Assembly: GCF_900108055.1 (NCBI RefSeq)
Contig: NZ_FNWJ01000001.1
Location: forward strand, 496,001 to 560,000
Origin: Thermoleophilum album
Lineage (GTDB): Bacteria; Actinomycetota; Thermoleophilia; Solirubrobacterales; Thermoleophilaceae
Length of the DNA stretch: 64,000 bases
Reading direction: 5' to 3'
Of the stretch, positions 4,786 through 54,903 are shown piece by piece (within the stretch, counting starts at the first letter, position 1; every line of letters starts with the position of its first letter). The position numbers and the translations under genes are program-made. The notes beneath the pieces were generated by a model that saw only the letters and a list, made by a program, of their open reading frames with translations, had not been told where the DNA came from and ran no database searches.

Positions 4786-4997
4786 GCGGGGCTCTGGCGC
4801 GCTCGCCGGCGCGGTCGCAGCGGCGTTACCTTAGGGTCGTCGAGCGGCTGCGGTGGGTAGTACTCGACGTCCTCGGGTTCGGCGAGTCGGGAGATCTTCT
4901 CGCCGACCCACAGGAGCGCGTCGAGCAACGGCGCGGCGAGCCCGATCAGCTGCTCGAAGCGTTGGCGTCGCCGTCTCTGCTCAGGAGTCAGATACAT
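4782..4997 (-). CDS. Small hypothetical protein
   Basis: 71 aa, soluble and strongly charged. It starts MYLTPEQRRRRQRF, has a central amphipathic helix (FEQLIGLAAPLLDALLWVGE), an acidic-tyrosine stretch (EPEDVEYYPPQP) and an Arg-rich C-terminus. The ATGA overlap with the downstream membrane-protein gene implies translational coupling. It is divergent from the 91-aa gene at 5068. No family is recognised. Confidence 0.6.
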   Translation of the reverse strand: MYLTPEQRRRRQRFEQLIGLAAPLLDALLWVGEKISRLAEPEDVEYYPPQPLDDPKVTPLRPRRRARQSPA

Positions 4998-5067
4998 GCG
5001 CGGATCTCGTCGCTGGAGCGACCGAGCGACGATTGGTCAAGAGAGTACCGGCTACTAGGATCGAGTC

Positions 5068-5343
5068 GTGGCCAGCGAAGATCCCTTCGGACTGTTCGGC
5101 GACCCCGAAGAGCTGAGGCGGCGGATGGCAGAGTTCGCCGAGCAGCTGCAGGGCGCGCAGCGCGTCGCCTGGGCCGACAACGCGATTCGACTAGCCGTCG
5201 AGATGACCGTGGCGGCGCTCGCCCGGATCAACGTGCAGGGCACGCCTGAGCAGCAGACCGAGCAGCTGGCAGCGGCGATACGCCGGCTGTTTCCCGAAGC
5301 CGTGATTCTCGTGCGGGAAGCGCGCGAGGGCTTCGGCACCTGA
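5068..5343 (+). CDS. Small hypothetical protein
   Basis: 91 aa from a GTG start. It is predicted all-helical and acidic, beginning with the short motif DPFGLFGDPEELRRRM and then two amphipathic helices. No Cys, signal peptide or membrane segment is present. The pattern is that of a small helical bundle or adaptor, but no family is recognised. Only about 70 bp separates it from the divergent gene pair at 4036-4997. Confidence 0.6.
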   Translation: MASEDPFGLFGDPEELRRRMAEFAEQLQGAQRVAWADNAIRLAVEMTVAALARINVQGTPEQQTEQLAAAIRRLFPEAVILVREAREGFGT

Positions 5344-39176: not shown

Positions 39177-40015
39177 CCGAGGATTCGCTCTTGATCCTCA
39201 GCGGTGCCAGGTAGAAGCCACTCGAAGCCTTCACGTGGGGCGCCGAGCGGCAAGTCCGCTGCCACCGGGGCGGCGTGTCGCCGCGGAAACGAGCCGAGCG
39301 CTTGCGATTCCGCACCGGGCACCCGTAGCTCCACCTGCACGTTGTCCGGCTCCACCTTGATGAGGTTGTAAGCCGGGTGCGGGAAAGCCCGCGTGCGCAG
39401 CGATGCCGCGGTCCCCGAGTGCACGACGAGCATCTCGCCCAAACGCCACGCATACGGAACGTGGCGATGGCCCCCGAGCACTAGGTCGACGCCGTGCGCC
39501 GATAGCAGCGCGAGTACGTCGCCTGCGTCCGCCACTTGGTTGCGCTCGCGACCCGTTCCGGGGATCGGCAGCAGGTGGTGGTGACAGACGAACACGCGCA
39601 GGTCGGCGGCTTCGTCGAGCGCTGCCGCCAGTGGCGCGTAGTGCTCGCGGCCAATCTCTCCCTCGTCGACGTCCGGCTTGCTCGAATCGACGCCGACTAC
39701 GGTCACCTGTTCGCCGTCGAGCTCCAGCCGTTTCGTCACCTCCCGGGGGCCCAGCAACCGCTCCCAGTGCAAGTAGCCGACGTGACGGGCGTCGTGATTG
39801 CCGGGCACGGCGACCACCTCCAAGCCGTCCAGCCGGCCGAGCGCCGTGCGCACCAACTCGTACTGGTCGGGGTAGCCCTCGTCGGTGAGATCACCGGCGA
39901 TCACCACCAGATCGGGGCGCAGAGCCGCGATCTCGCCGAGCGCAAGCTCCAGCAGTCGCGGCTCGTGACGGGCGCCGCCTACGTGCAGATCGGAGAGTTG
40001 GGCGATCAGGATCAC
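39173..40015 (-). CDS. Calcineurin-like metallophosphoesterase
   Basis: 280 aa. All metal-binding motifs are visible: QLSDLHVGG (D, H), AGDLTDEGYPDQY, VPGNHDARH, VCHHHLLPIP, and GGHRHVPYAW. This pattern fits the Icc/CpdA-type 3',5'-cyclic nucleotide phosphodiesterase branch, but substrates of these enzymes vary widely. It is in the middle of a three-gene operon with 4-bp overlaps on both sides (PHP phosphatase upstream, membrane protein downstream). Confidence 0.87.
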   Translation of the reverse strand: MILIAQLSDLHVGGARHEPRLLELALGEIAALRPDLVVIAGDLTDEGYPDQYELVRTALGRLDGLEVVAVPGNHDARHVGYLHWERLLGPREVTKRLELDGEQVTVVGVDSSKPDVDEGEIGREHYAPLAAALDEAADLRVFVCHHHLLPIPGTGRERNQVADAGDVLALLSAHGVDLVLGGHRHVPYAWRLGEMLVVHSGTAASLRTRAFPHPAYNLIKVEPDNVQVELRVPGAESQALGSFPRRHAAPVAADLPLGAPREGFEWLLPGTAEDQERILG

Positions 40016-41052
40016 GCGGCCCCGCGCCTGAGCCTACTCGCGATACGCAGCTCCGCCAGGACCCGCGCCGTGCGCAACCGCTCGACGCGTACGTCGGGCG
40101 GCCGGGCGGTGCGCGCGGCGCGGGCAACCGGCGGCGATCCAGAAAAGGGTCGACCCGCCCGGCTCGGCGGGGAGGGGAGGCCGGGCGGGCACGGACGCAC
40201 GTTTGGCGCGTCCGCTCCGGCAAGACGCCACGGGGTCTCGTTGACGAGACGCCGGACGTGCCGCGGTGCGAAGCCGTGGGCAAGGAGTGCGGCGCTGGCG
40301 GCCGAGAGCGCTGGAGGGCGCGTCGGTCCGTGTGCATCCGACGCGACCAGATGGGCAAGTCGCCGCTCCACCAAGTCGAGGGCGCGGCGCTCGGCGATCG
40401 CACCGTGACGCCCGATCAAGGACAGCGCGTTGACCTGCACGAGCGCCCCCCGCCGCACCAGCTCGATCAAGCGTCGCTCGCCAGCCGGCAGCGGTTCGGC
40501 GAGCTCGGGGTGCGCGAGGATCGGCCGGTAGCCGCGGCGCAAAAGCGCCTCGCAGGCACTCGCGAAGGCTGCGTCGAGGCCGTCGAAGGGCGTCTCGACG
40601 AGCAGGAAGCGCGAGTTCGCAACACGCCCCGCGTCTGCCCTCCCACCTAACGCAACCAGTTCCAGGAGTCGGGGGTCCAAGCGCAGCGCAAGATCCGCTG
40701 CGACCTCTGCCCCGGCCAGAATTGTTAGGTCGACCTGTGCTCGCCGCAGCTCACTGCGGAAAGCGACGACCGCACGCAGGATCTGCCGTGGATCGTGGAC
40801 GTGGTCGCGCCGCAGATGCGGTGTACAAACCACCGCCGCGGCACCGTCGGCACGCGCGGCGCGCGCCAGCGCCAAGGCTTCACGGACCGAAGCGGGGCCG
40901 TCGTCGATCGCGGGCAACAGGTGGAAGTGCAAGTCAACACGGCCGGCAATCACCCCATGCTCGCTTAAGGTTTCGTCAAACCGACCGCTTGCCTCTTCCC
41001 AATCAGTCTTGGTTGGCGCCCTCGGCTCACTCGTAGCGTTGGTCGGAAACAT
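40012..41052 (-). CDS. PHP-family phosphatase (CpsB/YwqE-like)
   Basis: About 346 aa from ATG 41052; a later GTG (40953) is also possible. The PHP domain has VDLHFHLLPAIDDGP (metal-binding HxH and DDG), CTPHLRRDHVHDP, ILAHPELAEP and SDAHGPTRPP. CpsB-type proteins dephosphorylate tyrosine kinases that control capsule or exopolysaccharide export, so a role in polysaccharide control is plausible with the neighbouring GT-C-like membrane protein. The final ~70 residues are Arg/Pro-rich. No kinase or export gene is in the window. Confidence 0.75.
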   Translation of the reverse strand: MFPTNATSEPRAPTKTDWEEASGRFDETLSEHGVIAGRVDLHFHLLPAIDDGPASVREALALARAARADGAAAVVCTPHLRRDHVHDPRQILRAVVAFRSELRRAQVDLTILAGAEVAADLALRLDPRLLELVALGGRADAGRVANSRFLLVETPFDGLDAAFASACEALLRRGYRPILAHPELAEPLPAGERRLIELVRRGALVQVNALSLIGRHGAIAERRALDLVERRLAHLVASDAHGPTRPPALSAASAALLAHGFAPRHVRRLVNETPWRLAGADAPNVRPCPPGLPSPPSRAGRPFSGSPPVARAARTARPPDVRVERLRTARVLAELRIASRLRRGAA

Positions 41053-41322
41053 CAGCGCGAACGATCGGCGGCGACCGCACGGCCCCCGTGAAGATTGCGT
41101 CAAGCAGTCGTTGCGATCGCGTTAACGGGACGCCGCTGGCGAATCGGCTCTCCGCGCTTCTCAGATAGAGGGAGAGAGACGGCGTCGCCGTCGGCGCCGG
41201 GCGCGCGGATGCAGAAAACGGCCGGCACGAAGGCGAGCTACCGCGGTTCCGTTAACGCGCTTTTCACTTTTGGGCACCAGGGTCTTAACGCGTCGAGGCC
41301 AAGGCGCAGCGACGCTCGGCGC

Positions 41323-41568
41323 ATGGAAACCAGCGAAAAGCTTTGGGCACTCCTCGCCGCCGGGATCACCGTGACGGGGACGCTCCTGATCGGTAACGCC
41401 GCGTTCTTCGTCGGGCTCGGCGTGGCGCTCGCGGGAACGCACACGCTGCGCGCCCTACGCGGCGCTCCGCTCAGCGGCCCACGCGGCGGATTCCGGCTTC
41501 CGAAACCATCTCCTCGAGCGCCCGCAGCCCGTAGGCTTCGACCGGGCCGAGCGCTCCCGACCCGCTGA
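41323..41568 (+). CDS. Small membrane protein
   Basis: 81 aa from ATG 41323. It carries two closely spaced hydrophobic helices (LWALLAAGITVTGTLLIG and FFVGLGVALAG). The C-terminal part overlaps the 3' end of the convergent saccharopine-dehydrogenase-like gene by about 98 bp and is Arg/Pro-rich, so the true end may be shorter. Function is unknown. Confidence 0.45.
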   Translation: METSEKLWALLAAGITVTGTLLIGNAAFFVGLGVALAGTHTLRALRGAPLSGPRGGFRLPKPSPRAPAARRLRPGRALPTR

Positions 41569-42583
41569 CCGCCCCCTCCTGAGCGCGCGCGCCCGCGATC
41601 GCCAGTATGCGGGCGGTGAAGTCGTAGGCGTTGTCGCCCGCGAGCTCCACGTAAGCGAGCTCGCGTCCCGTCCGGTCGTAGGCGATCGCGACGATCCGCG
41701 ACCCTACTCGCGCGCGGACGGCGTCCGATGGTCCCTGGCCGGATGCGTGGATCCGCTCCGAAAGCGCCTGCGTGACGCGCTTCGTGCCAGGCACTAGACG
41801 CGCAAGCGACGCCAAGGCCGACACCACCTACATCGGGCGCGAGAGCGCCGCGAACCAACCGAGGTAAACGTTGACCTGCTCGAGTTGTGGGAACGAGCGC
41901 GGCAGCGCGTAGTGCTCGCTACCACCGACCGAGACCGCCTTGCGAGCACCCTTGCTCGTGCGGAACGTCCGCACACGCCGTGCCGCCCGCTCGCTGCGGA
42001 TACCGCCGTCTCGGAAGGCGAACGATGGTTCACCGATGACGCCGACCAGGGAAGCGCGGGTGCCACCGCTCATAGCCGAGGGCGACGGTGGCCCATCGAC
42101 GAAGTAGCCGATGTCGACGCGGGCGGCGTCCTCGCCCGCTTCCTCGACAGCGAGCGCCGCCGCCAAGTTGCCGGGGACGTAGTCGTAGCCCATCGCCGTC
42201 ATCAGGGCCGCGCCGGCAGCTTGCGCACGCGGCCCGTACTCCTCGAAGACTGCGCGCATGAAGGGAGGCTCACCGGTCGAGTCGAGGTATGTACAGGGCG
42301 CCGCGACCGCAGCCTCGAGCGCCGCGTAGCCGTAGCGCTGGAAGGGACCGACGGTAGTGATAAGCACGTCTCCGCGCTCGACCAAGCGCCGTACCGATGG
42401 TGGATCGGCCGCGTCGGCGATCGCGATCTCGAGGTCGTCGCGACCGAGCTCGTCCCGCAGCCGCTCCAGGCGATCACGGCTACGCCCAGCTAGCACCGGC
42501 GCGACCCCGCGCGCGACGAGCTCGCGCGCGGTCAACGCGCCGGTAAAACCGCTGGCACCGAACAGCACTACTCGGCCGGCCAT
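41471..42583 (-). pseudogene. Saccharopine-dehydrogenase-family oxidoreductase with in-frame TAG
   Basis: A single frame runs from ATG 42583 to the stop at 41471, interrupted only by TAG at 41830-41828. The N-terminal part (239 residues) has VVLFGASGFTGALTARELV (Rossmann GxSGFxG), TVGPFQRYG, CTYLDSTGEP, MGYDYVPGNLAAALAV. The part after the TAG has YDFTARILAIAG, and GALGPVEAYGLRALEE near the end. Together they give about 370 codons, the normal length for trans-acting enoyl-reductase-like/saccharopine dehydrogenase proteins. A CAG to TAG change explains it. Readthrough, mutation or a sequencing error are all possible. Confidence 0.75.
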
Positions 42584-42602: not shown

Positions 42603-43121
42603 CTAGGCGGCCCGCTCACGTTGACCGGCGGCGAGTTTGCGCAGCAGTGCCGCGAGCTCCGATGCCTGCTGCTCGTCCAGCGCTGCGCCCAAGTGCTCGC
42701 GCACGGTGCGGTCGTGGAGCGGGCGCATCCGTTGGTAGATCCGGCGACCTTCGGCGGTTAGCAGCACGTGATAACCGCGTCGATCCTTCGGACAGCGGCG
42801 GCGCTCGACAAGCCCGGCCTGCTCGAGCCTGTCGAGGAGCCGCGTGAGCCCGCTCTTCGAGAGGTTTACGTGTTCGACGAGCTCGCGCGGTCGCAGCGAT
42901 CCTTCCGGGGCCCGAGCGAGCGCCTGTAACACCTCGTACCAGCCGAGCGGTGGCAGTGACGCGCCGGCGAACGCTCGCTCGAGCGCGCAAACGACGGCCG
43001 CATGCGCGCTCGCCAGAGCGCTCCAGGCAGCCCGATGTGCGGGCCCCGCGGCCTGGCTTGCACGAGCCGAGGGCTTGTCCTCGCGCTTCGGTCCGGCCCT
43101 TCTGCTTGCCACGTCTGTCAC
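42603..43121 (-). CDS. MarR-family transcriptional regulator
   Basis: About 172 aa from GTG 43121 (GTG 43112 also possible). The winged HTH is clear: LPPLGWYEVLQALARAPEGS, then LRPRELVEHVNLSKSGLTRLLDRLEQAGLVERRRCPKDRRGYHVLLTAEG with the recognition helix SKSGLTRLLDRL. The N-terminus is Arg/Ala-rich. It is divergent from yceI with an inverted repeat in between, which is a likely operator. Likely ligands are phenolic or oxidative signals (family knowledge). Confidence 0.85.
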   Translation of the reverse strand: MTDVASRRAGPKREDKPSARASQAAGPAHRAAWSALASAHAAVVCALERAFAGASLPPLGWYEVLQALARAPEGSLRPRELVEHVNLSKSGLTRLLDRLEQAGLVERRRCPKDRRGYHVLLTAEGRRIYQRMRPLHDRTVREHLGAALDEQQASELAALLRKLAAGQRERAA

Positions 43122-43149
43122 GACCTCAGTGTAAGGGTGCCGGCGTATT

Positions 43150-43209
43150 AGTTGCCTGAGCAACAGTTGTGCTGCTACCTTTCGTCGCGACGGTCGTTGC
43201 ACCTACAAC
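43150..43209 (+). promoter_or_regulatory. Two GTTGC-type inverted repeats between marR-like gene and yceI
   Basis: GTTGC-CTGA-GCAAC at 43151-43164 is a perfect inverted repeat with a 4-bp loop. A second, looser GTTG...CAAC lies at 43196-43209. Such TTGC/GCAA half-sites are bound by several MarR-type regulators, and the position between divergent genes fits autoregulation. Confidence 0.55.
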
Positions 43210-44454: not shown

Positions 44455-44580
44455 CCGTAATCCGAGCGCCGGAGGTCAGGCGCGGCGCCTGACGACGCCC
44501 GGCCACGGCCCCTGACGACGCCCGCTTGCAGTGTTAGCTTAGGTGCGCCCGTCGAATGGGCACGGTTGAAAGGAGGATCC

Positions 44581-45408
44581 TTGGAGACTCCCCCAGCGAG
44601 TGGCTCCATTCAAGACCCGGCGGGCGATCGGGGTGTTTCCTCCCCTCAGGCATCGGAGCCTGGCGCTGTGCATCAGCAAGCCCCAGCCCCGCCGCCCCCA
44701 CCTGCCGCACCGCCACCGCCTGTTGCCACCGAGCGCCTGCCCGCGGCACGCATCGAGTAGTTCCCGCTGCTCGATCGCGAGGCCCGGAGACGCCACGAGA
44801 CCGACGTCCAACTTTCTTTCGCGATGTATCTGGTGCTCGGCTTTTTGACGCTCGGCATTTACTCGATCTACGTGCACTACAAGTTGATCGCCAGGCAGCG
44901 CGACCACTTCCGCAGGATGTTGCGGTTCTGCGACGACCTTTTGCGGGTAATCGAGGAGCGCGCCGAAATCACCGGGCAAAGCGAAGCGCTGGCCGCCGAG
45001 ATCGCCGAGGTTCGTTCTCTCAAGGAGCGCTTCGACGAAGTTCATCGCAAGCGCCAGCGCAGCCCTGGGCTCTGGATCGTGTTGAGCATCCTCAGCTTCG
45101 GCTTGCTGTTCTTCTACGTTCTCTACTTCCTCAACGACGACCTGGTGGAGCATCAGCAGATCGAGGCCGAGTATCTCGAGCGGGCGTCGCTGCTTCTCAA
45201 CAAGCTCGGTGTCGGGAGGCACCCGGTGATCGTCGAACAGGTGGTTCCCGACCGCAGCTTCCCGCTCTACCTGATCCTGACGATCGTCACGCTCGGTCTG
45301 TTCGAGTTGTACTGGGCGTACGCGCGCATCAAAGACGGCAACGAGCACTTCAACGAACACGCGCGCTTCGAGGATCAGCTGCTGTCCCTGATCCGCGCCT
45401 ACGCGTAG
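44581..45408 (+). pseudogene. Polytopic membrane protein (DUF4234-like) with in-frame TAG
   Basis: TTG 44581 follows AAAGGAGG at ideal spacing and opens a Pro-rich cytosolic N-terminus (APAPPPPPAAPPPP). TAG at 44758-44760 interrupts the same frame, which continues without change through a helix-rich protein (MYLVLGFLTLGIYSIYVHY..., a coiled coil ERAEITGQSEALAAEI..., another helix pair, LILTIVTLGLFELYWAYA). The downstream part alone lacks a ribosome site. Pro-rich start plus TLGIYxxYxHYK matches DUF4234 membrane proteins. The amber codon could be CAG to TAG or a sequencing error. Confidence 0.65.
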
Positions 45409-45445
45409 GCGGGCGCCGGCGTCGGACGCGGTCTGCTCAGGAGCG

Positions 45446-46516
45446 GTGGAGCACATCCGCGGTCGACAGATCGAGCGGGACAGGCTTCCGCCGCCTCCCG
45501 ATCACGCTGCCGGCTGGAAGCTCGACCCCCGCGATCGGCGCTACCTCCGTTACTGGGACGGTCGCTCTTGGACGGATGCGGTAGCGCCAGCGGCACCGGG
45601 CGGCGCGGCGGTGGCGGCGCCGCCCGGCTGGTACGGGGATCCTGCGAACGCCTCGCTGCAGCGCTTATGGGATGGTCAAAGGTGGACCGACCAAACGCGT
45701 CCGGCGGCTACGCAGCGACGGGGACCGCCGCCCCCCAGTGAGCACCCTTTCGAGGGTCCCGACTGGCCGGCGTGGAGCGGACCTCTGGCGTTCATAGCCG
45801 CTGCGATCGGTGGCTTGCTCGCGGCCTTGCCGCTGATCTTGAGCAAGGAGCGAGATCCCGTCTGGTGGATCGGCTCGACGTTCGGGCAAGAACTTCTGTT
45901 CGTGTTGTTAGCGCTGGCGGTCGCCGCCCGCAGCGCTCGGCCACGGCCGTGGCACTTCGGCCTCGCCGGAACCACACCGCGCCAGCTCGCGACGTGGCTG
46001 GCGGTGGCAGTTGGCGGCTACAGCGTGTTCATCTTGCCGGCATTGTTGGCGAGCGGGGAGACCGACCGCCGCGAGGTGTTGCCGGAACTCGCCGGCCGCA
46101 GCGACGCTGCGGTGCTCTGGCTGTTGGCCGCGTTGATCGTCGTGACCGCGCCGATCACCGAGGAGTTCTTCTTCCGCGGCTTCTTCTACCGGGCTTTACG
46201 CAACCAACTCGAGTTCGCGCCCGCCGTGCTCGCGAACGGACTGGTCTTTGGGCTCGCTCACCTACCGAGCGAACCGGGCGCCTTCGTCCCGCTGACGCTC
46301 TTCGGCGCGCTGCTGTGCATTGTTTACGAGCGGACGGGCTCGCTTCTTCCCGCGATCACCATCCATTCGCTCAACAACACGATCGTGCTCGCCTTCCCCG
46401 CGCATCTGCCAGTCCAAGCCCTCACCCTCGGCTTGCCGGTGATCTTGGGTTCGCTGGTGCTCAGCCTGACGCTGCGCGACACCCCGATGCGCGAGCGCGA
46501 CCGCAGTTACGGATAA
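45446..46516 (+). CDS. CPBP (CAAX-like) intramembrane protease with DUF2510 motifs
   Basis: 356 aa. The N-terminus has two DUF2510 units (AGWKLDPRDRRYLRYWDGRSW and PGWYGDPANASLQRLWDGQRW), typical of Actinomycetota. Then 7-8 membrane helices with the Abi/CPBP catalytic motifs ITEEFFFRGFFYRAL, GLVFGLAHLP and HSLNNTIVLAF. CPBP proteins cleave prenylated or other peptides; substrates here are unknown. GTG 45446 follows the broken membrane-protein gene by 37 bp. Confidence 0.87.
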   Translation: MEHIRGRQIERDRLPPPPDHAAGWKLDPRDRRYLRYWDGRSWTDAVAPAAPGGAAVAAPPGWYGDPANASLQRLWDGQRWTDQTRPAATQRRGPPPPSEHPFEGPDWPAWSGPLAFIAAAIGGLLAALPLILSKERDPVWWIGSTFGQELLFVLLALAVAARSARPRPWHFGLAGTTPRQLATWLAVAVGGYSVFILPALLASGETDRREVLPELAGRSDAAVLWLLAALIVVTAPITEEFFFRGFFYRALRNQLEFAPAVLANGLVFGLAHLPSEPGAFVPLTLFGALLCIVYERTGSLLPAITIHSLNNTIVLAFPAHLPVQALTLGLPVILGSLVLSLTLRDTPMRERDRSYG

Positions 46517-46594
46517 GGGTCGGCCTGTCCGGCCGCCCCTCCACACTCGGTCGTAGCTACGCCGCCCCCGGGACGACGTTCCCGAGGATGACGC

Positions 46595-46850
46595 TCAGCG
46601 CGCGCCACGCAGCTTGAAATCGTTGGACTGCCGCTTACTGGGCGGCGTGATCAAGAGGCGCTCGACCGCCTCGATCGACTCAGAAGGGCCGATCAAGAGC
46701 AGGCGGTCATGAGGCTGCAAGGGCTCGCGTTGTGACGGGCGGTAGCGCCAGCGCGATCCGCGACCAATCGCCAATACCCTCATCCCGGTGCGTTTCTCGA
46801 GGCGCAGCTCTTCGAGGGTCGCGCCGCACGCAGAGCGATCAGGCGCATGC
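46595..46850 (-). pseudogene. Fragment of a TrkA-C (RCK C-terminal) domain protein
   Basis: Leftward from about 46850, the frame gives CGATLEELRLEKRTGMRVLAIGRG, then WRYRPSQREPLQPHDRLLLIGP and ends 46595. This is a recognisable RCK_C/TrkA-C domain (VLAIxRG...P...L..GD.LLLIG) as found on potassium-channel regulators. The upstream part changes frame and is not recognisable. A further frame (46860-46985) on the same strand looks partly coding but stops at a TAG. The piece lies just before the mobile-element junction and is read as a truncated gene. Confidence 0.6.
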
Positions 46851-47037
46851 TGTGTGCAGCGATCTACCCCTGCTCGACGCCGGAGCCGTCGAGCTCGCTC
46901 GCAGCGACGACGGCCGCGGCGAACTGAGCCGAAAGATCAGCCCAGTCAGTCCCAGCGAGGGCCGCGGTCGGGGGATTGCTCGATCACGCGCTGGCCTTGA
47001 GTGCAGATCAGCTCAGGGCCTTTCTATCCCACCGTAA

Positions 47038-47081
47038 TGGGCGGCGCCGGACTCGAACCGGCGACCTCCTGCTTGTAAGGC
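47038..47081 (-). repeat. attL: 44-bp core identical to the 3' half of tRNA-Val
   Basis: The 44 bases are identical to 54831-54874, from the discriminator base of tRNA-Val through its anticodon region, and diverge immediately on both sides. The copy lacks the 5' half of the tRNA and cannot fold as a tRNA. Confidence 0.9.
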
Positions 47082-47102
47082 CCATCCGGGGGTTTCCGGC
47101 TC

Positions 47103-48368
47103 TCACCGTCTGTTGCTTTTTGCAGGGAAAATGCGGGCGGCGGTTTCCCGCTGTTGCCGTTTTGGCAAGCGTGATGCTTGCCAAACGCTTGCCAGTTCGA
47201 GGGTGCGGTAGGCGTCCTCGAGGGCTCGCCGGCGCTGCTCGCGCTGCTGGTGGGTGCGCAGCTCGTGGGTGTAGATCGCGAGGGTCACGGTGGGGGTTGC
47301 GTGCCCCAAGTGCCAGGCCACCTGGTCGGGTCCGAGCCCTTGGGCGATGAGCAGGGTTGCGCAGGTGTGGCGCAGCGAGTGGGGCGTTGGTGGGGGCCCC
47401 TGGCGCGCGCCGAGCACCTCGGGGAAGGCGGGGCGGCCGTCCACCAGCTTTGCGGCTTTGAGGGCGCGGTTGAACGCGCGACGGATGTTCGCGCTGTCGA
47501 GCGGTGCGCCTGTTTCGGCCACAAACACATAGTCGTCGGGTTGCGACCAACCTGACTGGGCGCGGAGCTCAAGTAGCCGCTTTGCGAGGGCGCGTGTTAG
47601 TGGCACGACGCGCCGGGACGCCGGGGTTTTGAGGGGCCGCTCCCGCCCGTGCTTGTCGAGCTGGCGCTCGATCCTGCAGGTCGCGGCGGCCGGGTCGGTG
47701 AGGTCGAGGTCCCGCCAGCGGAGCGCCCGCGCTTCCCCGAGCCGCGCACCGGTCACGGCGAGCAGCTCGAACAGGCACCGCCAGCGGGGGGTGTCGCACG
47801 CCTCGAGTAGCGCGCTGAGCTCTTCGGGTGTGAGCGCGCGGCGGCGCGCCTGGGTGTGGGGCGCTGGGCGCTCCGCCCGCTCAAGCAGCAGCGCAGGGTT
47901 CTCGCCCCGCCACCCGCGGCGCCTCTGAGCCCACCGGAAGCTGTTGCGGGCAGCGGCGACGGCTTTCGCGATGGTGCTGTCGGCGTAGCCGGCGCGGCGC
48001 AACTCGGAGACGCGGCGCGCCAGGTCCTCGGGGGTTAGGTGGTCGAGCCTGCGGCGGCGCAAATCACCGAGGAGGCGCGCCCCCACCTTGTAGGCCTCGA
48101 GCGTGGATTCGCGGACCGCCGCCTGTTTTTCGGCAAGCCAGTTGTCGCACGCCTCGCCGAGGGTGAGCGGCACCCTCGGCCGCGGCAGCTCGCCGCGGGC
48201 GCGGAACCCCCGCAGCTCGTCCCGCAGCTTGCGCGCGTCCGTGAGCCTGGGGCCCGCGGTGCGGAACCGTTGCCTGCCGTCGGCGTCCCGCACCACCACC
48301 TCGTACACGGGGCCGGTGCGCGTTTCACGCACCCACACGCCGGGTTCGACTCGCCGCCTGCGCGCCAC
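47103..48368 (-). CDS. int: Tyrosine recombinase (phage-type integrase)
   Basis: 421 aa from GTG 48368. N-terminal SAM-like arm/core-binding region (about 75-170; LTLGEACDNWLAEKQAAV), then the catalytic domain with the tetrad: Arg in TGARLGEARALRW, His-x-x-Arg in PHSLRHTCATLL, His in HLGHATPTVTLAIYTH and Tyr nucleophile in IYTH. It recombines attP with the tRNA-Val core. Its 3' end lies 22 bp from the attL core and contains arm-type repeats. Confidence 0.93.
   Translation of the reverse strand: MARRRRVEPGVWVRETRTGPVYEVVVRDADGRQRFRTAGPRLTDARKLRDELRGFRARGELPRPRVPLTLGEACDNWLAEKQAAVRESTLEAYKVGARLLGDLRRRRLDHLTPEDLARRVSELRRAGYADSTIAKAVAAARNSFRWAQRRRGWRGENPALLLERAERPAPHTQARRRALTPEELSALLEACDTPRWRCLFELLAVTGARLGEARALRWRDLDLTDPAAATCRIERQLDKHGRERPLKTPASRRVVPLTRALAKRLLELRAQSGWSQPDDYVFVAETGAPLDSANIRRAFNRALKAAKLVDGRPAFPEVLGARQGPPPTPHSLRHTCATLLIAQGLGPDQVAWHLGHATPTVTLAIYTHELRTHQQREQRRRALEDAYRTLELASVWQASRLPKRQQRETAARIFPAKSNRR
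47163..47194. repeat. Left arm-type integrase sites
   Basis: GCTTGCCA occurs at 47176-47183 and 47187-47194, with an inverted GGCAAGC at 47164-47170, all within 125 bp of the attL core. The 21-bp block 47174-47194 recurs with one mismatch near attR (54738-54758). This is the expected layout of arm-type binding sites. Confidence 0.6.
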
Positions 48369-48379
48369 CGCGCCACACC

Positions 48380-48655
48380 CTACGGGGCGTTTCGCTCCCC
48401 AGCAAGCCAGCGGTCGACCTCGCTGCGGCGGACGCGCCGTTTGCCGTTTGGGGTGTGTTGGACGGTGCGCAGCTCCCCGCGGTTCGCAGCATCCACAAGG
48501 CGGTGGTAGCTCACCTTGGCGTACCGGGCGGCGTCCCGCATCGTGAGCCACTCGTCCCGCTCCATCCGCCGCTCGATACGCTCGTAGACGCGGTCGGCGA
48601 CAAGCTCGGCGATGGCTTCCGCGAGCGGTTGGAGGGGGCCGAGGTTGCCGTTCAC
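48380..48655 (-). CDS. Excisionase-like helix-turn-helix protein
   Basis: 91 aa from GTG 48655. The C-terminal half is a MerR-like/HTH_17 excisionase fold: EWLTMRDAARYAKVSYHRLVDAANRGELRTVQ followed by GKRRVRRSEVDRWLAGE. Helical N-terminus (LAEAIAELVADRVYERIERRM). It ends 11 bp before the integrase start, as for a recombination directionality factor. Its start overlaps the preceding gene by 4 bp. Confidence 0.82.
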   Translation of the reverse strand: MNGNLGPLQPLAEAIAELVADRVYERIERRMERDEWLTMRDAARYAKVSYHRLVDAANRGELRTVQHTPNGKRRVRRSEVDRWLAGERNAP

Positions 48656-48966
48656 TGCTCCCTCTCCTTGAGGCGCTGTTTGAGGGTTGTGAGCGCCGTG
48701 TGGGCGTGTTGGGCGTGGCGGGTGGCTTTTCGGGCGAGGGTGAGCGCCCCACCTTCCAGGGGGTGGGTGCGGTCGAGCAGCGCGAGCCACCCCGCGAGGT
48801 CTGCGGCCTCCTCGAGCGCCTCGTCGAGAAGCGCGGTTGCGGGGCGCTGCAGGTTCCGGTTGCGGTAGGTGGCCTCCCCGGCGTTGAGGCGCGCGGCCGC
48901 GTGGCGGGCGAGCTCGCCGCGCGCACCGAGCCGCCCAAGGTGGCGGCGCCACCTCAACCCCACCAC
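48652..48966 (-). CDS. Hypothetical element protein
   Basis: 104 aa, helical and Arg/Leu/Ala-rich (RHLGRLGARGELARHAAARL; LDEALEEAADLAGWLALLDR). Four-bp overlap with the excisionase gene and 13-bp overlap with the next upstream gene indicate a tight operon. No family is recognised; a DNA-binding or regulatory role cannot be shown. Confidence 0.5.
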   Translation of the reverse strand: MVGLRWRRHLGRLGARGELARHAAARLNAGEATYRNRNLQRPATALLDEALEEAADLAGWLALLDRTHPLEGGALTLARKATRHAQHAHTALTTLKQRLKEREQ

Positions 48967-49163
48967 CCCCCTTTGAGGGTGCGGGCCGCAACAGCGAGCC
49001 TGAGCGCCTCAGGCGCCCACTCGGGCAGCAGGTCGCTCGCGAACCTGTCGGGGAGTTGGGCGAGCTCCCTGCGCCAGGCCCGCTCGATCGGTGCGCGGTC
49101 GCGCGGGTTGGGCCACAGGTGGCGCAGCGTTTCTGCGAGCGGGTCGGGCAGCTGGCCGTTCAC
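48954..49163 (-). CDS. Small element protein
   Basis: 69 aa from GTG 49163 (GTGA overlap with the replication-protein stop). Its start VNGQLPDPLAETLRHL resembles the excisionase start VNGNLGPLQPLAEAI. The rest is Trp/Arg/Pro-rich (WAPEALRLAVAARTLKGG). Function unknown. Confidence 0.45.
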   Translation of the reverse strand: MNGQLPDPLAETLRHLWPNPRDRAPIERAWRRELAQLPDRFASDLLPEWAPEALRLAVAARTLKGGWWG

Positions 49164-51304
49164 AAGCCACCACCCCCCCGGGTGTCGTCCCGGGACGACG
49201 CTCGCTCGGTCGCGTGGGCGCAGTAGCGGCAGCCCGGCCGGTAGCCGTTGTCGGGCCGGTCGGGGTCGACGTGCGCGGGGCACGCGCGTTTTGTTCCGCT
49301 GCCAGCGTTGTCGCCAGCAGGGGGTGATAAGCCACCGTTCGCAAGATGATCATCAGTGATGTATAGGGGGTGATCATCTTGCGGGGATCCCTTTTCTGAA
49401 GCCGAATTCGCAAGATGATCATCTTGTGGGGCGTTGTCGGGCAGTTCCCACTCCCACCTACCCCGCCCGCGGTTTCCCTGCGAGAGGCGCTTCCTTCTGA
49501 TGCCAAGCCCGGCCGCTGCGCGCCTTAAGGTCATCTCGCTGATCCCCTCCTCCCGGGCCTCCGCGAGGATGTCTCTCACCGCCACGGGCCCGTCGCTGAG
49601 CACCTCCCGGAGGAACGCTTCCGCCCTCTCGCGCGCGCCCGCCTCGCCGTGACCATCCGCGTCAAGCAGGTCCGCTGCCGAGACCGCAACCTCGCCCTCG
49701 ATGACGGTGCGAGCCGCGAGCACCCCGTCGACCCTCACCGGCTCTATGCGCATCGCGAGGCCCGGAGCGAGCCACGACAGGTTGGACTTAGCGTGAGCCA
49801 GTACACGGCGGTCGCTGTCGAGATCGTCGGGGTCTCGAGCGAGCAGCAGCACGCTGCGGGCGGCGGCGGGCATCCCGATCGACCCACCGACTCTGTAGAG
49901 CGGGTGGTTTCCGTGCATCTGCGTCTTGTTCAGGTGGGCGACAACAACCACGGCGCAGGCGGTTGCCTCGGCGATCCGTGCGAGCGGGCCGAGCGCCTGC
50001 CTGACGGACTGGTCGCGCCAGGAGTGCACCCGCTCGTCGAGGTGGGCGCTCAACGGGTCTATCACCACTAGCTGCGCGCCGTTTGCCCGAGCCTGCTCCT
50101 CGAGGAGGGGGGCGTCACTGGGCAGAGCGAGCCGATCGTCGCTGTCGCCTTCGCGCACCCTGATGACGTGCACTAGTTCGAGGTGCGCACCCGCCGCCTC
50201 GAGCCGGGGCCGGATCACCGCTGCTGCGTGATCCTCTCCCGAGACGAGCAGCACCGCCCCACCCTGCTGGGTTACCTGGGCGGCGAGCCAGCAGGTGAGC
50301 ATTGACTTTCCGGCCCCAGGGTCGCCTACCAGCAGTGTTAGCGCGCCGAAAGGCACGCGCGGCTCCCAGAGCCACCGCACAGGCTGCGGCTTGATACTCG
50401 CGGCGCTCACGGTCTCCACCCGCCGCCGGGGCGCGCCTTGCCCGCCCGGCGCCTGCCCCGCGGGCTCGTAGCGGGAGGCGCTCTCCGCGACCTTCCGCAC
50501 CTCCGCCTCCGGGAGCGGCGGGTCGCACCGCTCCGCGTTCAGTGTGAGCAGCACCTCCTCGAGCTCGGCGGGGCTGTAGCCGCGGCCGCGGAGAGCGCAG
50601 GCCTCGCGGAACAGGCGGTCGTTGCGCTCACCCACACACCACCGCGCACCGCGCGAGCCAGTGGGGTGTGCCGGCTTGTGGCGATGCGCCACCGCCTCAA
50701 GCAGCCACCCGGGCGGCTGCGCAACCTCGGCGAGACGCAGCCAGCGGTAGCGGCGCCCGCCCACCACCGACGGGGGGACGACGACGTACCCGCCCTCGCC
50801 GCGCACATCAACACCCGGGAAAACCTGGGTCCTGCAGCGCACCTCGACGCCCTCGGGGAGGCGGAAGTAGAGGTGGCGCCCGCCCGACGGCGTCGCGACC
50901 GTCACCGTCGCGGGGAGCGGACCGTGCTCGCGCTCGAGCCGCTCGAGCGTCCCCAGCCCCTCCTCCCCGTCGATGTCGAGCACCCACAGGCCCGAGGCGC
51001 TCCCGGTCCGCAACCCCAGGTTCAGGGGGAGCGTGTCGCCGCTCTCGCTCACCCCCCACCACTCGGCGATGCGAGTGGTGTCGCTGGTGGCGTCCTTGAA
51101 GCCGCGGGGCGTTGCGGGCTCCTTCCTGTCCTTGGCGCACGGAAACACCGGGAGGCCGAGCCGCGCGAGGCGGCACGCCGCGCCGTAGGTGCGGGTGTAG
51201 TGGGCGAGCGCCTCGGGGATCGCGAGCGTAGAATCCCCCGCGGAGAGGGTTGTTTTTGCGCCCCCGCTCGCAAGGGCGGGGGCGCTCCTGTTTACGCAGC
51301 GCAC
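49160..51304 (-). CDS. Prim-Pol / AAA (RepA-like) replication protein
   Basis: 714 aa from GTG 51304, which follows AGGAGGG at 6-bp spacing. N-terminal bifunctional primase-polymerase (about 10-215): LDIDGEEG (catalytic DxD), SGGRHLYF, PGVDVRGEGGYVVVPPS. An AAA/RecA-like domain (about 285-520) follows with Walker A LLVGDPGAGKS and Walker B QLVVIDPLSAH. The C-terminus has a winged-helix segment (ISEMTLRRAAAGLGIRRKRL), then direct DDHLAN repeats and a CxxC zinc knuckle (GCRYC). It probably initiates replication of the element after excision. Confidence 0.88.
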   Translation of the reverse strand: MRCVNRSAPALASGGAKTTLSAGDSTLAIPEALAHYTRTYGAACRLARLGLPVFPCAKDRKEPATPRGFKDATSDTTRIAEWWGVSESGDTLPLNLGLRTGSASGLWVLDIDGEEGLGTLERLEREHGPLPATVTVATPSGGRHLYFRLPEGVEVRCRTQVFPGVDVRGEGGYVVVPPSVVGGRRYRWLRLAEVAQPPGWLLEAVAHRHKPAHPTGSRGARWCVGERNDRLFREACALRGRGYSPAELEEVLLTLNAERCDPPLPEAEVRKVAESASRYEPAGQAPGGQGAPRRRVETVSAASIKPQPVRWLWEPRVPFGALTLLVGDPGAGKSMLTCWLAAQVTQQGGAVLLVSGEDHAAAVIRPRLEAAGAHLELVHVIRVREGDSDDRLALPSDAPLLEEQARANGAQLVVIDPLSAHLDERVHSWRDQSVRQALGPLARIAEATACAVVVVAHLNKTQMHGNHPLYRVGGSIGMPAAARSVLLLARDPDDLDSDRRVLAHAKSNLSWLAPGLAMRIEPVRVDGVLAARTVIEGEVAVSAADLLDADGHGEAGARERAEAFLREVLSDGPVAVRDILAEAREEGISEMTLRRAAAGLGIRRKRLSQGNRGRGRWEWELPDNAPQDDHLANSASEKGSPQDDHPLYITDDHLANGGLSPPAGDNAGSGTKRACPAHVDPDRPDNGYRPGCRYCAHATERASSRDDTRGGGGL
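49338..49426. repeat. Iteron-like palindromes in the replication gene
   Basis: TTCGCAAGATGATCATC recurs exactly at 49338-49354 and 49408-49424; the second copy lies in a perfect 16-bp palindrome CAAGATGATCATCTTG (49411-49426). A third copy in inverse sense is at 49371-49382. The repeats encode the DDHLAN stretches of the protein, yet palindromy and spacing suggest a DNA role such as replication origin or autoregulatory operator. Confidence 0.55.
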
Positions 51305-52182
51305 ATTTGCCCTCCTGTGTGTCGTGTTGCGCGCCCCCACGGGTCGGGGACGCGCCCAACGAGCGCCCACACACCGGTGTGTGGGCGCAGGCCCAGCGTT
51401 AGGCCGGGCTCGAAAGACGCTCTAATGAACTCGCCGCAAACAACAGGGCGAGACGCACAACACACAACACGCTGCGGCCACCGGCCGCCCCGGCAACCCC
51501 AGCGGCGGCGGCCACCACAAGATGGGTCGTCAGCGTCGGGGTCGCCGCCCGGCCCAGCCCGGCACGCGCCACGCCTAGCCGCGCGACGGGCACGCTGGCG
51601 GGGGCGGCGTGCGCGGCGCGCCACCAGGCAAAGCGTCCGCCCCTTGGGTTTCGCGAAGGCGCGCCTCGGCGACACTGGGGCCGCGACCCGCACCCTCTCA
51701 CACACTCGCCCCGCCTCATCCCCCAAAGCTGCGCGCGCGGCACTCTCGCTCACGACCCTGTGCCGCAGCAGACGCCGGAGCGCGCGCAGCCGGTAGCCCA
51801 CCTCCTGCGCCCGCAGCGCACACTCCCGCTCCTCCCAGTCGAGCTCCGTCAGGTCGAGGTGATCCCACGCGACCGGGTCCATCTGGGTTATTGGGTGGGT
51901 GATCTCTGCGAGCAGGGATGCGAGCTCCCACTCGAGAGCGTCCAGTAGCCGGAGCGCCACCCCGCGGTCACGCAACCGCCAACCCCAGGATCCCGGACGC
52001 GGCGCGGCGTCAAGAGCGCGCACTCGGCGGCGCAGCCGCTCGAGGTGTCTACCCGGCAGGCTGCGGCGGCGACCGGGGCGTGCACGCGCCAGCAACCCCG
52101 GCCTGTGGGGCCAGCCGCTGGGCGCACGCTCGGCGCGATGCGGCCGTGTCGCAGCTACGTGTTCTGTGTGTGCTTGACGCAC
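51292..52182 (-). CDS. Hypothetical element protein, frame partly uncertain
   Basis: About 296 aa from GTG 52182 (the frame is open further upstream). The middle (about 51720-52000) shows coding-type third-position bias and protein-like segments (ALEWELASLLAEITHP; TELDWEERECALRAQEVGY). The last third is Arg-rich and overlaps a better hydrophobic frame at 51399-51743, so the gene may really end near 51720 or be frameshifted. It runs up to the replication-protein start. No family recognised. Confidence 0.35.
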   Translation of the reverse strand: MRQAHTEHVAATRPHRAERAPSGWPHRPGLLARARPGRRRSLPGRHLERLRRRVRALDAAPRPGSWGWRLRDRGVALRLLDALEWELASLLAEITHPITQMDPVAWDHLDLTELDWEERECALRAQEVGYRLRALRRLLRHRVVSESAARAALGDEAGRVCERVRVAAPVSPRRAFAKPKGRTLCLVARRARRPRQRARRAARRGACRAGPGGDPDADDPSCGGRRRWGCRGGRWPQRVVCCASRPVVCGEFIRASFEPGLTLGLRPHTGVWALVGRVPDPWGRATRHTGGQMCAA

Positions 52183-52354
52183 CGAGGCAAGGATGCGCCC
52201 CCTTGCGGACGGAAAGAAAAATCTCGGAGCTACACCGCACAAAAGCGCTTGGGGGCCGCAGCCCGCTAAGGGCGGCGACCCCCGCAGCACACACAGAACA
52301 CATCCAACGGTACCGCGCTTACCAGACGTAAGTGCGGACCCCGGGTTCAGGGGC

Positions 52355-52915
52355 TCAGCGCGGGGGGCGCTGCACCAGAAGCGCGAGCGCGAACAGTGTT
52401 CTCGCTTCCTCGTCGGTAAGCGAGCCCACAGCCCGCAGGGCGAGCTCCGCGCTGCGCACAAGCTCGAGCACCTCGCCGCGGTTAAACATCTTGACGTGGT
52501 CGTAGTCCGCGGCCTCCCGCTCTTTGCGGAGCGTGCTGAAACGCTTCGCGAGGTCTCGCACCGTTGCGTTGCGGGCAAGGGTTGCGCGCGCCAGATGGCC
52601 AAGCTGTTTCGCGCGCGGGTCGTGAAGCGTCGGGGCGCCCCTGCCGGATGCGGCACGCAGCGCCCGATCGAGCGCCGCGTGATCGATCTGTCGGCGCAGC
52701 ACAGAGAGATCGCCGGGCGCCAGGTGCGCGAGCGACGCACCCGCCAGCCGCTCGGTCAAAGCGTGGAATACCGCGTAGTAGGCGGCCGAGACTGCGCGAC
52801 GCAGCCCGACTTGAGGGGGTCTGCCGCGACCCGCTGCGCTCGGCACTAAGTCCCGCGCGTGTCCGAGCAGCTTTTGGGGCGAAAAGCCGGGAGCTACCGA
52901 ATAGCCGCTAGCCAC
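52355..52915 (-). CDS. HEPN-like domain protein (possible toxin/RNase)
   Basis: 186 aa, all-helical. LRRAVSAAYYAVFHALTERLAG is the typical first HEPN helix (AYYAVFH). Later KREREAADYDHVKMFNRGEV and LELVRSAELALR fit the C-terminal helices. An R-(x)3-H at RRQIDH could be part of an RNase-type motif but is not the full Rx4-6H. HEPN proteins in mobile elements are often toxins, defence nucleases or adaptors. It follows a 109-aa gene by 19 bp, suggesting a two-gene module. Confidence 0.65.
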   Translation of the reverse strand: MASGYSVAPGFSPQKLLGHARDLVPSAAGRGRPPQVGLRRAVSAAYYAVFHALTERLAGASLAHLAPGDLSVLRRQIDHAALDRALRAASGRGAPTLHDPRAKQLGHLARATLARNATVRDLAKRFSTLRKEREAADYDHVKMFNRGEVLELVRSAELALRAVGSLTDEEARTLFALALLVQRPPR

Positions 52916-52934
52916 ACCCGTGGGTTATCGGCAG

Positions 52935-53264
52935 CTACTCGAGGTCAGCGGGGTCGATGTGCTCGGGACGGAACCGCACGAAAGTGTCCTCCACCCCCAG
53001 CACGTCCCAGCCACCGACCCGATCCAGCGCCTCATCAACGGCGTCCTCGATCGCCCGCAAACACTCGTCGGGCCAGGTGCCCTCAGGTTCAGGCGGGTCG
53101 TTGAGGGTCACCTCGACCAGCAGGTTCGGCTCCCCGTCGAGGGTCCACCAAAGATCGAACGCAACACCCTTCACCTCGACGTGGCCGCACTCGGCCGCGG
53201 CCCGCTCAACGGCCTCGCGGACCTGCGCTTGCACCTCCTCGCGTGTCGCAGCTGTCGCAGGCAT
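52935..53264 (-). CDS. Conserved-looking partner of the HEPN gene
   Basis: 109 aa, acidic alpha/beta. Helical N-terminus (TREEVQAQVREAVERAAAE), beta strands with FDLWWTLDGEPNLLVEV, a helix CLRAIEDAVDEALDRV, and acidic C-terminus RFRPEHIDPADLE. The acidic character next to a basic HEPN protein fits an antitoxin-like or regulatory partner. The pair lies downstream of a leftward terminator, so it likely has its own promoter in 53270-53500. Confidence 0.5.
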   Translation of the reverse strand: MPATAATREEVQAQVREAVERAAAECGHVEVKGVAFDLWWTLDGEPNLLVEVTLNDPPEPEGTWPDECLRAIEDAVDEALDRVGGWDVLGVEDTFVRFRPEHIDPADLE

Positions 53265-53500
53265 TGGCTCGAAGCGGGGCGTGTGGCTCCCGCCTTCATC
53301 TCAGCAGATCGGCGGCGCACAAGCAATCGTTAGCGCCGCGCAGACGCTATGAGCTCAACCCCCGCCACAAGGGCGCCGCCGCGACCACCCGCGGCCCGTG
53401 GCCCCGGGTTCGCCGACGCCACGCGACGCGGCGCTCGAAAGAGCCCGTTGGAAACGCCTGTGATGGGCTTCCGAGAAAAGGGGGGTTATCCGCCCGCGGA

Positions 53501-53518
53501 AAAGGCCGTGAAACGGCC
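53501..53518 (-). terminator. Rho-independent-like terminator (leftward)
   Basis: GGCCGT-GAA-ACGGCC (53504-53518) is a perfect 6-bp stem; read on the minus strand it is followed by TTTTCC. It lies 17 bp beyond the stop of the frameshifted gene at 53536, separating it from the HEPN pair. Confidence 0.6.
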
Positions 53519-53535
53519 GTGACACGCCGCTTTGG

Positions 53536-53752
53536 CTAGTCGCGCACAAGACGCCCCCGCTTGTCCACCTCGAACCCCGCCTTGCGCATCACGTCCACCG
53601 CCACCTTGTGGATCGTGCGCGCCTGCCGCCGCAGATCCCACCCGAGGCGCGCGCGCTTTCTCGTCCACCCAGTCGGCGTGCTCGATAACCAGCCGCATCA
53701 ACCGGTACACCTCGGCGCGCGCCACCGGGTCGCTAGGCGGCTCGCCCACCAC
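53536..53752 (-). pseudogene. Small element gene with frameshift in a GC run
   Basis: From GTG 53752 the frame reads PSDPVARAEVYRLMRLVIEH, then DWVDEKARA. At a run of five GC units (53647-53656) the frame must gain two bases to continue as RLGWDLRRQARTIHKVAVDV and MRKAGFEVDKRGRLVRD before the stop at 53536. Six GC units would restore one ~73-aa helical protein. Sequencing error, real mutation or slippage cannot be separated here. It follows the HTH gene with overlap. Confidence 0.55.
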
Positions 53753-54146
53753 CGCCTCGCTCCCGCCGCTGTGGGAGCGGCACCACCTCACCGACAAGGT
53801 CCGCCAGCTCGTCCCGGGACGAATCCCCGCCCAACCCGAGGTCGACCGCCAGCTTCATTGCGCGAACATCCCCGGCTCTCGCCGCGCGCGACACAAGCAA
53901 CCGAAGCTCCCCAGGCTCAAGCTCGCCCTGTGGCACAAACCGGCCCTCTAGAGCCCGCAGCTCGAGCGCCGCAGCCAGCCGCCCACACACAGAAAGCGCC
54001 GCCCACTCGCCGCGGCCACGCTCAACCCACCGCCGCACAGTCTCATAACTCACCCCACACTCCCGCGCCAAATCCCGCAGCGACGCGCCACCCAAAGCGA
54101 GCGCCAACACCCTGTCCGTCAACCGGTCTGTGCGACCCTCGGGCAC
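53733..54146 (-). CDS. HTH protein of the phage terminase-small-subunit type
   Basis: About 137 aa from GTG 54146 (open upstream to 54203). N-terminal HTH: RVLALALGGASLRDLARECGVSYETVRRWVERG, as in Hin/terminase-small-like DNA-binding domains. The rest is helical (LELRALEGRFVPQGELEPGEL; AMKLAVDLGLGGDSSRDELA). It could bind DNA for regulation or packaging; no large terminase is present, so packaging would need a helper. Assignment is by HTH pattern only. Confidence 0.55.
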   Translation of the reverse strand: MPEGRTDRLTDRVLALALGGASLRDLARECGVSYETVRRWVERGRGEWAALSVCGRLAAALELRALEGRFVPQGELEPGELRLLVSRAARAGDVRAMKLAVDLGLGGDSSRDELADLVGEVVPLPQRRERGGGGRAA

Positions 54147-54366
54147 CCCCCAAGCATCACCACCCCCGCGGACGTTGTGTGTGTTCCCGCCGGCGCGCGC
54201 CACAAGGGGCCGGCGCGCTGGGCTCGCGAGCGCTCAAAAAACCGGGGGCTTCGGCGACGTTCGCAACGCTCACGCGCGCGCGTTACAGCTTCTCGAAATT
54301 CTCGATATTGGGCGGGGGCGAGCCCACCCAAGGGGCCCGCCCCCGCGCTACCGCCCCGCGGTGACC

Positions 54367-54717
54367 CTAGCCGGCCTCGACCGTGGCGCTCTCGAGGTCC
54401 CCGTTTTGGGTGGCGAGCCGCTCCGCGAGCTCGACGAGCGCCCCCGAGCACGCCTCGGCGGTCTCGGTGGTGGGGGCGCCCACCCGCTCAAGCTCACAGC
54501 GCACCTCCCGCACCGCGTCGAACGGGTCGCCCGCCACCGCCGCCAGCTCGAGGCGGTGGTGCTCCTCGAGGTAGCCCTGGTTTGAGCCCTGGACCCACTT
54601 GGCCTCGGCGGCGTAGCGGCCACCGAGGCGGCGAACCCTCACCTCCACCGTCTCGAACCCCTGGCCGGGGAGACCGTAGCTGCCGCCCGTGCCCTCAGCG
54701 ATCAGCTCTTCGCCCAT
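54367..54717 (-). CDS. Hypothetical element protein
   Basis: 116 aa, acidic. Beta-rich N-terminus (SYGLPGQGFETVEVRVRRLGG, YAAEAKWVQGS), then a helix with GDPFDAVREVRCELERVGAP and TAEACSGALVELAERLATQNGD. This is the first gene of the leftward element operon, 14 bp inside the right arm-site block. No family recognised. Confidence 0.5.
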   Translation of the reverse strand: MGEELIAEGTGGSYGLPGQGFETVEVRVRRLGGRYAAEAKWVQGSNQGYLEEHHRLELAAVAGDPFDAVREVRCELERVGAPTTETAEACSGALVELAERLATQNGDLESATVEAG

Positions 54718-54737
54718 GTTGTGCCCTCCGCGTGTTC

Positions 54738-54758
54738 ATGCTTGCCATACGCTTGCCA
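54738..54758. repeat. Right arm-type integrase site
   Basis: ATGCTTGCCATACGCTTGCCA matches 47174-47194 at 20 of 21 positions. It lies 73 bp from the attR core, and the two GCTTGCCA half-sites have the same 11-bp spacing as on the left. Confidence 0.6.
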
Positions 54759-54830
54759 AACGTCCTTCTCGGGTTCGGCAGGCGTCGGAGGGCCGCGACA
54801 CAACCCCGCTGTTTGCAGGGGTTTTGCGAG

Positions 54831-54903
<73 letters not shown>

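Follow-up and report, generated by a model that had tools for sequence, protein, structure and literature searches.

We consider it probable that an ordinary saccharopine-dehydrogenase-like oxidoreductase gene of Thermoleophilum album, located on the reverse strand of the window (the whole 64,000-nucleotide stretch of DNA analyzed here), has lost its function through a single recent nonsense mutation. The case for this reading is made by a single TAG in an otherwise intact frame, by CAG at the same codon in close orthologues, and by an intact, collinear orthologue in a same-genus genome, G002. The ancestral gene would have encoded glutamine (CAG) at codon 252, and this codon would have become TAG by a C-to-T transition in the coding strand. 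Ribosomes would then stop at codon 252 through the action of RF1, giving a predicted product of 251 residues that keeps the NADP-binding domain and lacks the last third of the protein, a loss that probably renders it inactive. The lesion would be recent, either an allele at strain level or a pseudogene of very recent origin.

An interrupted saccharopine-dehydrogenase-like gene

The frame runs from 42583 to 41471 (-) and contains one in-frame TAG, at 41830-41828, which is codon 252 of 370. Translation and alignment revealed no second stop and no frameshift ahead of the final TGA at 41473-41471. The N-terminal part of the gene, comprised of 251 codons and ending at the TAG (41828..42583), is defined by translation, Pfam, and its identity to G002, while the conserved remainder (41471..41827) is made up of 118 codons followed by TGA. 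Read through the stop, the protein would be 370 aa long, as compared to 369 aa for the intact G002 orthologue. A sequence-only reading of this DNA had described the frame, both of its stops, its C-terminal motifs, and a total length matching that of intact relatives, and translation bears out each of these points.

The family assignment comes from the N-terminal part. Pfam places Sacchrp_dh_NADP (PF03435) at residues 5-127, with 42.5 bits against a cut-off of 25.1, and the gene thus resembles other saccharopine-dehydrogenase-like proteins in having an NADP-binding domain above the Pfam cut-off, while differing from them in being truncated. The saccharopine-dehydrogenase-like label has been applied to, for example, the mycobacterial enoyl reductase Rv2953 (PMC3089613). 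No NCBIfam family scored above its cut-off for the window fragment or for its orthologue in G002, and a PDB sequence search with the G002 orthologue matched two chains, both over N-terminal stretches only (E of 8e-4 and 8e-3). AlphaFold2, run on a two-row alignment of the window protein (Q substituted for the TAG) and the homologue L006, returned a model with a mean pLDDT of 48.7, too poor to locate codon 252 in the structure or to serve for a fold search.

Codon 252 among homologues and the genomic neighborhood

The identity of codon 252 in related genes speaks to the origin of the stop. In an alignment of 29 sequences, this gene and 28 other homologues, Gln encoded by CAG occupies the TAG column in 21 of the 28, and the seven remaining rows, which are more distant, have other sense codons and residues. 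None of the 28 has a stop there. TAG flags raised on the G043 and G045 homologues were rejected as interior stops, as they are the terminal stops of those genes. The intact G002 orthologue (C1:145366-146472) is 74% identical, has no stop, and carries CAG at this codon. Since close orthologues encode Gln by CAG and no aligned homologue has a stop, a single C-to-T step confined to this genome is the simplest account of the TAG. The sequence-only reading had proposed such a CAG to TAG transition, and had asked whether homologues have Gln or Arg at the site or are naturally split there. The 21 Gln residues support the transition, natural splitting is seen in none of the aligned homologues, and Arg occurs in L006, a 45% identical protein that came from a separate scan and lies outside the set of 28.

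The same alignment bears on whether the gene now works in two pieces, with ribosomes reinitiating at the GTG that follows the TAG to translate the last 118 codons separately, and the two fragments together forming the enzyme. GTG GTG does lie directly 3' of the TAG and opens a 118-aa frame. However, inspection by eye shows nothing resembling a Shine-Dalgarno sequence at the usual spacing upstream of this GTG, Pfam matches no domain in the 118-aa C-terminal fragment alone, and no aligned homologue is interrupted at this point. We find such a split hard to credit.

Gene order around the G002 orthologue is collinear with that in the window. In both genomes a MarR-type regulator (42603..43202 (-) in the window, matching Pfam MarR_2) lies directly upstream, and a CpsB/CapC-type gene (40012..41103 (-), assigned by Pfam and intact) and a metallophosphoesterase gene lie downstream. 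The oxidoreductase gene is not universal in the genus and family, with matches at E below 1e-80 in 14 of 31 genomes, own included. Among the 12 of these 31 genomes that are at least 90% complete, it is found in ten, again counting its own, and thus it is not lightly lost. This counts against a nonsense allele.

Constraint on either side of the stop

Codon scoring of the 118 aa beyond the TAG gives a coding-like result, and the differences of this segment from G002 are third-position-biased. Identity to G002 is 194 of 251 residues before the TAG and 79 of 117 after it. Together, the codon score, the identity, and the third-position bias indicate a coding signal beyond chance in the downstream segment. 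Of the columns in which at least 85% of 20 close orthologues agree, our gene deviates at 13 of 118 before the TAG and 7 of 36 after it, as compared to 9 of 118 and 6 of 36 for G002, and so there is no visible sign of long decay. The dN/dS against G002 is 0.17 before the TAG and 0.40 after. dN/dS is higher in the C-terminal part in six of the seven other pairs computed as well, and in four of the five pairs that do not involve this gene. The weaker downstream identity and raised dN/dS thus look less telling, being offset by the same C-terminal trend in most other pairs. A lack of decay is just as compatible with a base error or with retained function.

Reading of TAG in this genome

Retained function could be achieved by translational readthrough, in which an amino acid is inserted at TAG at a rate sufficient to yield full-length enzyme. 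In pyrrolysine and other amber recoding, an in-frame TAG lies within an otherwise conserved gene, and in this respect our gene is alike. The resemblance ends there: no PylS was found above cut-off (the best match scored 28.6 bits, far below the cut-off of 178.15), none of the 46 tRNA genes found with the Rfam model, all of them covered by ARAGORN, has a CUA anticodon in this 95.56% complete genome, and TAG is a normal terminator. Of 140 genes sampled in 224 kb, 42 terminate in TAG, this gene's own TAG counting among the 42; the sample required a third-position bias of at least 0.5, and matches below this were dropped. The RF1 family (TIGR00019) is present above cut-off, and the two Gln tRNAs have the anticodons CTG and TTG. 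With no CUA tRNA, no PylS above cut-off, RF1 present, and TAG in common use as a terminator, amber codon reassignment or pyrrolysine insertion in this genome is without support. ARAGORN also calls a second tRNA-Leu (gag) at L056:7831-7920, outside the 46 Rfam matches, which may be spurious or may represent a divergent copy.

Readthrough of this one stop at a useful rate is likewise improbable. In its favor, the segment after the TAG still resembles coding sequence, and in-frame stops in bacterial genes are described as a widespread phenomenon, short-lived for the most part and illustrated by a CAG/TAG example (Belinky et al. 2021, PMC7918605). Against it stand the tRNA, PylS, RF1, and terminator results, and the lack of TAG at this site in any orthologue; conservation downstream of a recent mutation is, moreover, uninformative on readthrough. 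A broader version, in which the TAG is tolerated through useful readthrough or two-fragment assembly and serves as a short-term dial that lowers enzyme level, would be a long shot.

Survey for similar lesions and assembly quality

The main rival to a nonsense mutation is a consensus base error in the assembly, such that the organism has CAG and an intact gene. We surveyed 224 kb of the T. album genome (G000) against 240 kb of G002 for in-frame stops only, using ORFs of at least 100 aa, matches above 120 bits, and a minimum third-position bias of 0.45. Flank identity flagged an interior stop in seven of the 162 G002-to-G000 matches that passed these filters, and the TAG at codon 252 is the only clear interior nonsense change. 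On re-examination of third-position bias, five of the six other flagged matches each resemble a start-site extension or the end of a gene. The sixth, a short match at G000 C1 500900-501340 (window 4900-5340), is ambiguous, as its TAG lies at an alignment gap and not at a substitution.

With one clear lesion in 162 matches, there is no indication that the assembly is rich in errors or that gene decay is widespread. This result cuts both ways for a base error. A rare, isolated error would look just like what we see, a gene that is conserved apart from one lesion, with no second clear case in 162 matches over 224 kb. Yet the sampled 224 kb show no sign of an error-rich consensus, and the 2.2 Mb assembly is highly contiguous, with contigs of 1.26 and 0.90 Mb among its five, 95.56% completeness, and 0.62% contamination. 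A DNA-damage artefact would be expected to leave more than one C-to-T stop. We regard a base error as possible, though rather unlikely, and favor the nonsense mutation. Recent pseudogenization, readthrough, and a sequencing or damage artefact had been offered as the options for this gene; the first fits best, a base error could be at work, and readthrough lacks support.

The nonsense mutation, if real, is a kind of lesion that is already known. It resembles single-nonsense pseudogenes and transient in-frame stops (PMC7918605) in that one substitution has produced TAG from a sense codon (CAG in our gene) while the rest of the gene looks constrained. It differs from the stops on which Belinky et al. 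focus, which are common to at least two genomes (PMC7918605), in being found in one genome only. Any bacterial genome can be expected to contain single nonsense alleles and isolated consensus errors, and this case matters little in itself. The useful result is negative, as TAG recoding and a cluster of such lesions are both without support in this genome.

The region beyond the interrupted gene

A second gene 3 kb away had been said, with no coordinates given, to carry the same kind of interruption. We could not reproduce this, finding no other clear interior-stop case where the window is collinear with G002. The best candidate, in the non-collinear part, is a DUF4234 gene (44824-45408 (+), identified by Pfam) with a TAG at 45406-45408. 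This TAG was rejected as a premature stop, because the only relative found in the 41 genomes searched (in G015, 28% identity) ends at the matching place. The DNA that follows is covered, in another frame, by the next gene (45446-46516), which has DUF2510 and CAAX-protease domains. The DUF4234 TAG looks like a natural terminator, and the earlier claim may have referred to a different gene.

Further along the window lies a 7.8 kb integrated element (47038-54874), whose two ends carry the same 44-bp segment of a tRNA-Val gene as an exact repeat. A local comparison found no G002 match for window positions of about 44500-54900, a stretch larger than the repeat-bounded element. One copy of the repeat (47038-47081) lies beside a phage-integrase gene (47103-48938 (-)) and the other (54831-54874) lies inside the tRNA-Val gene (54830-54903). 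The element also carries a primase/polymerase-AAA gene (49160-51370 (-)).
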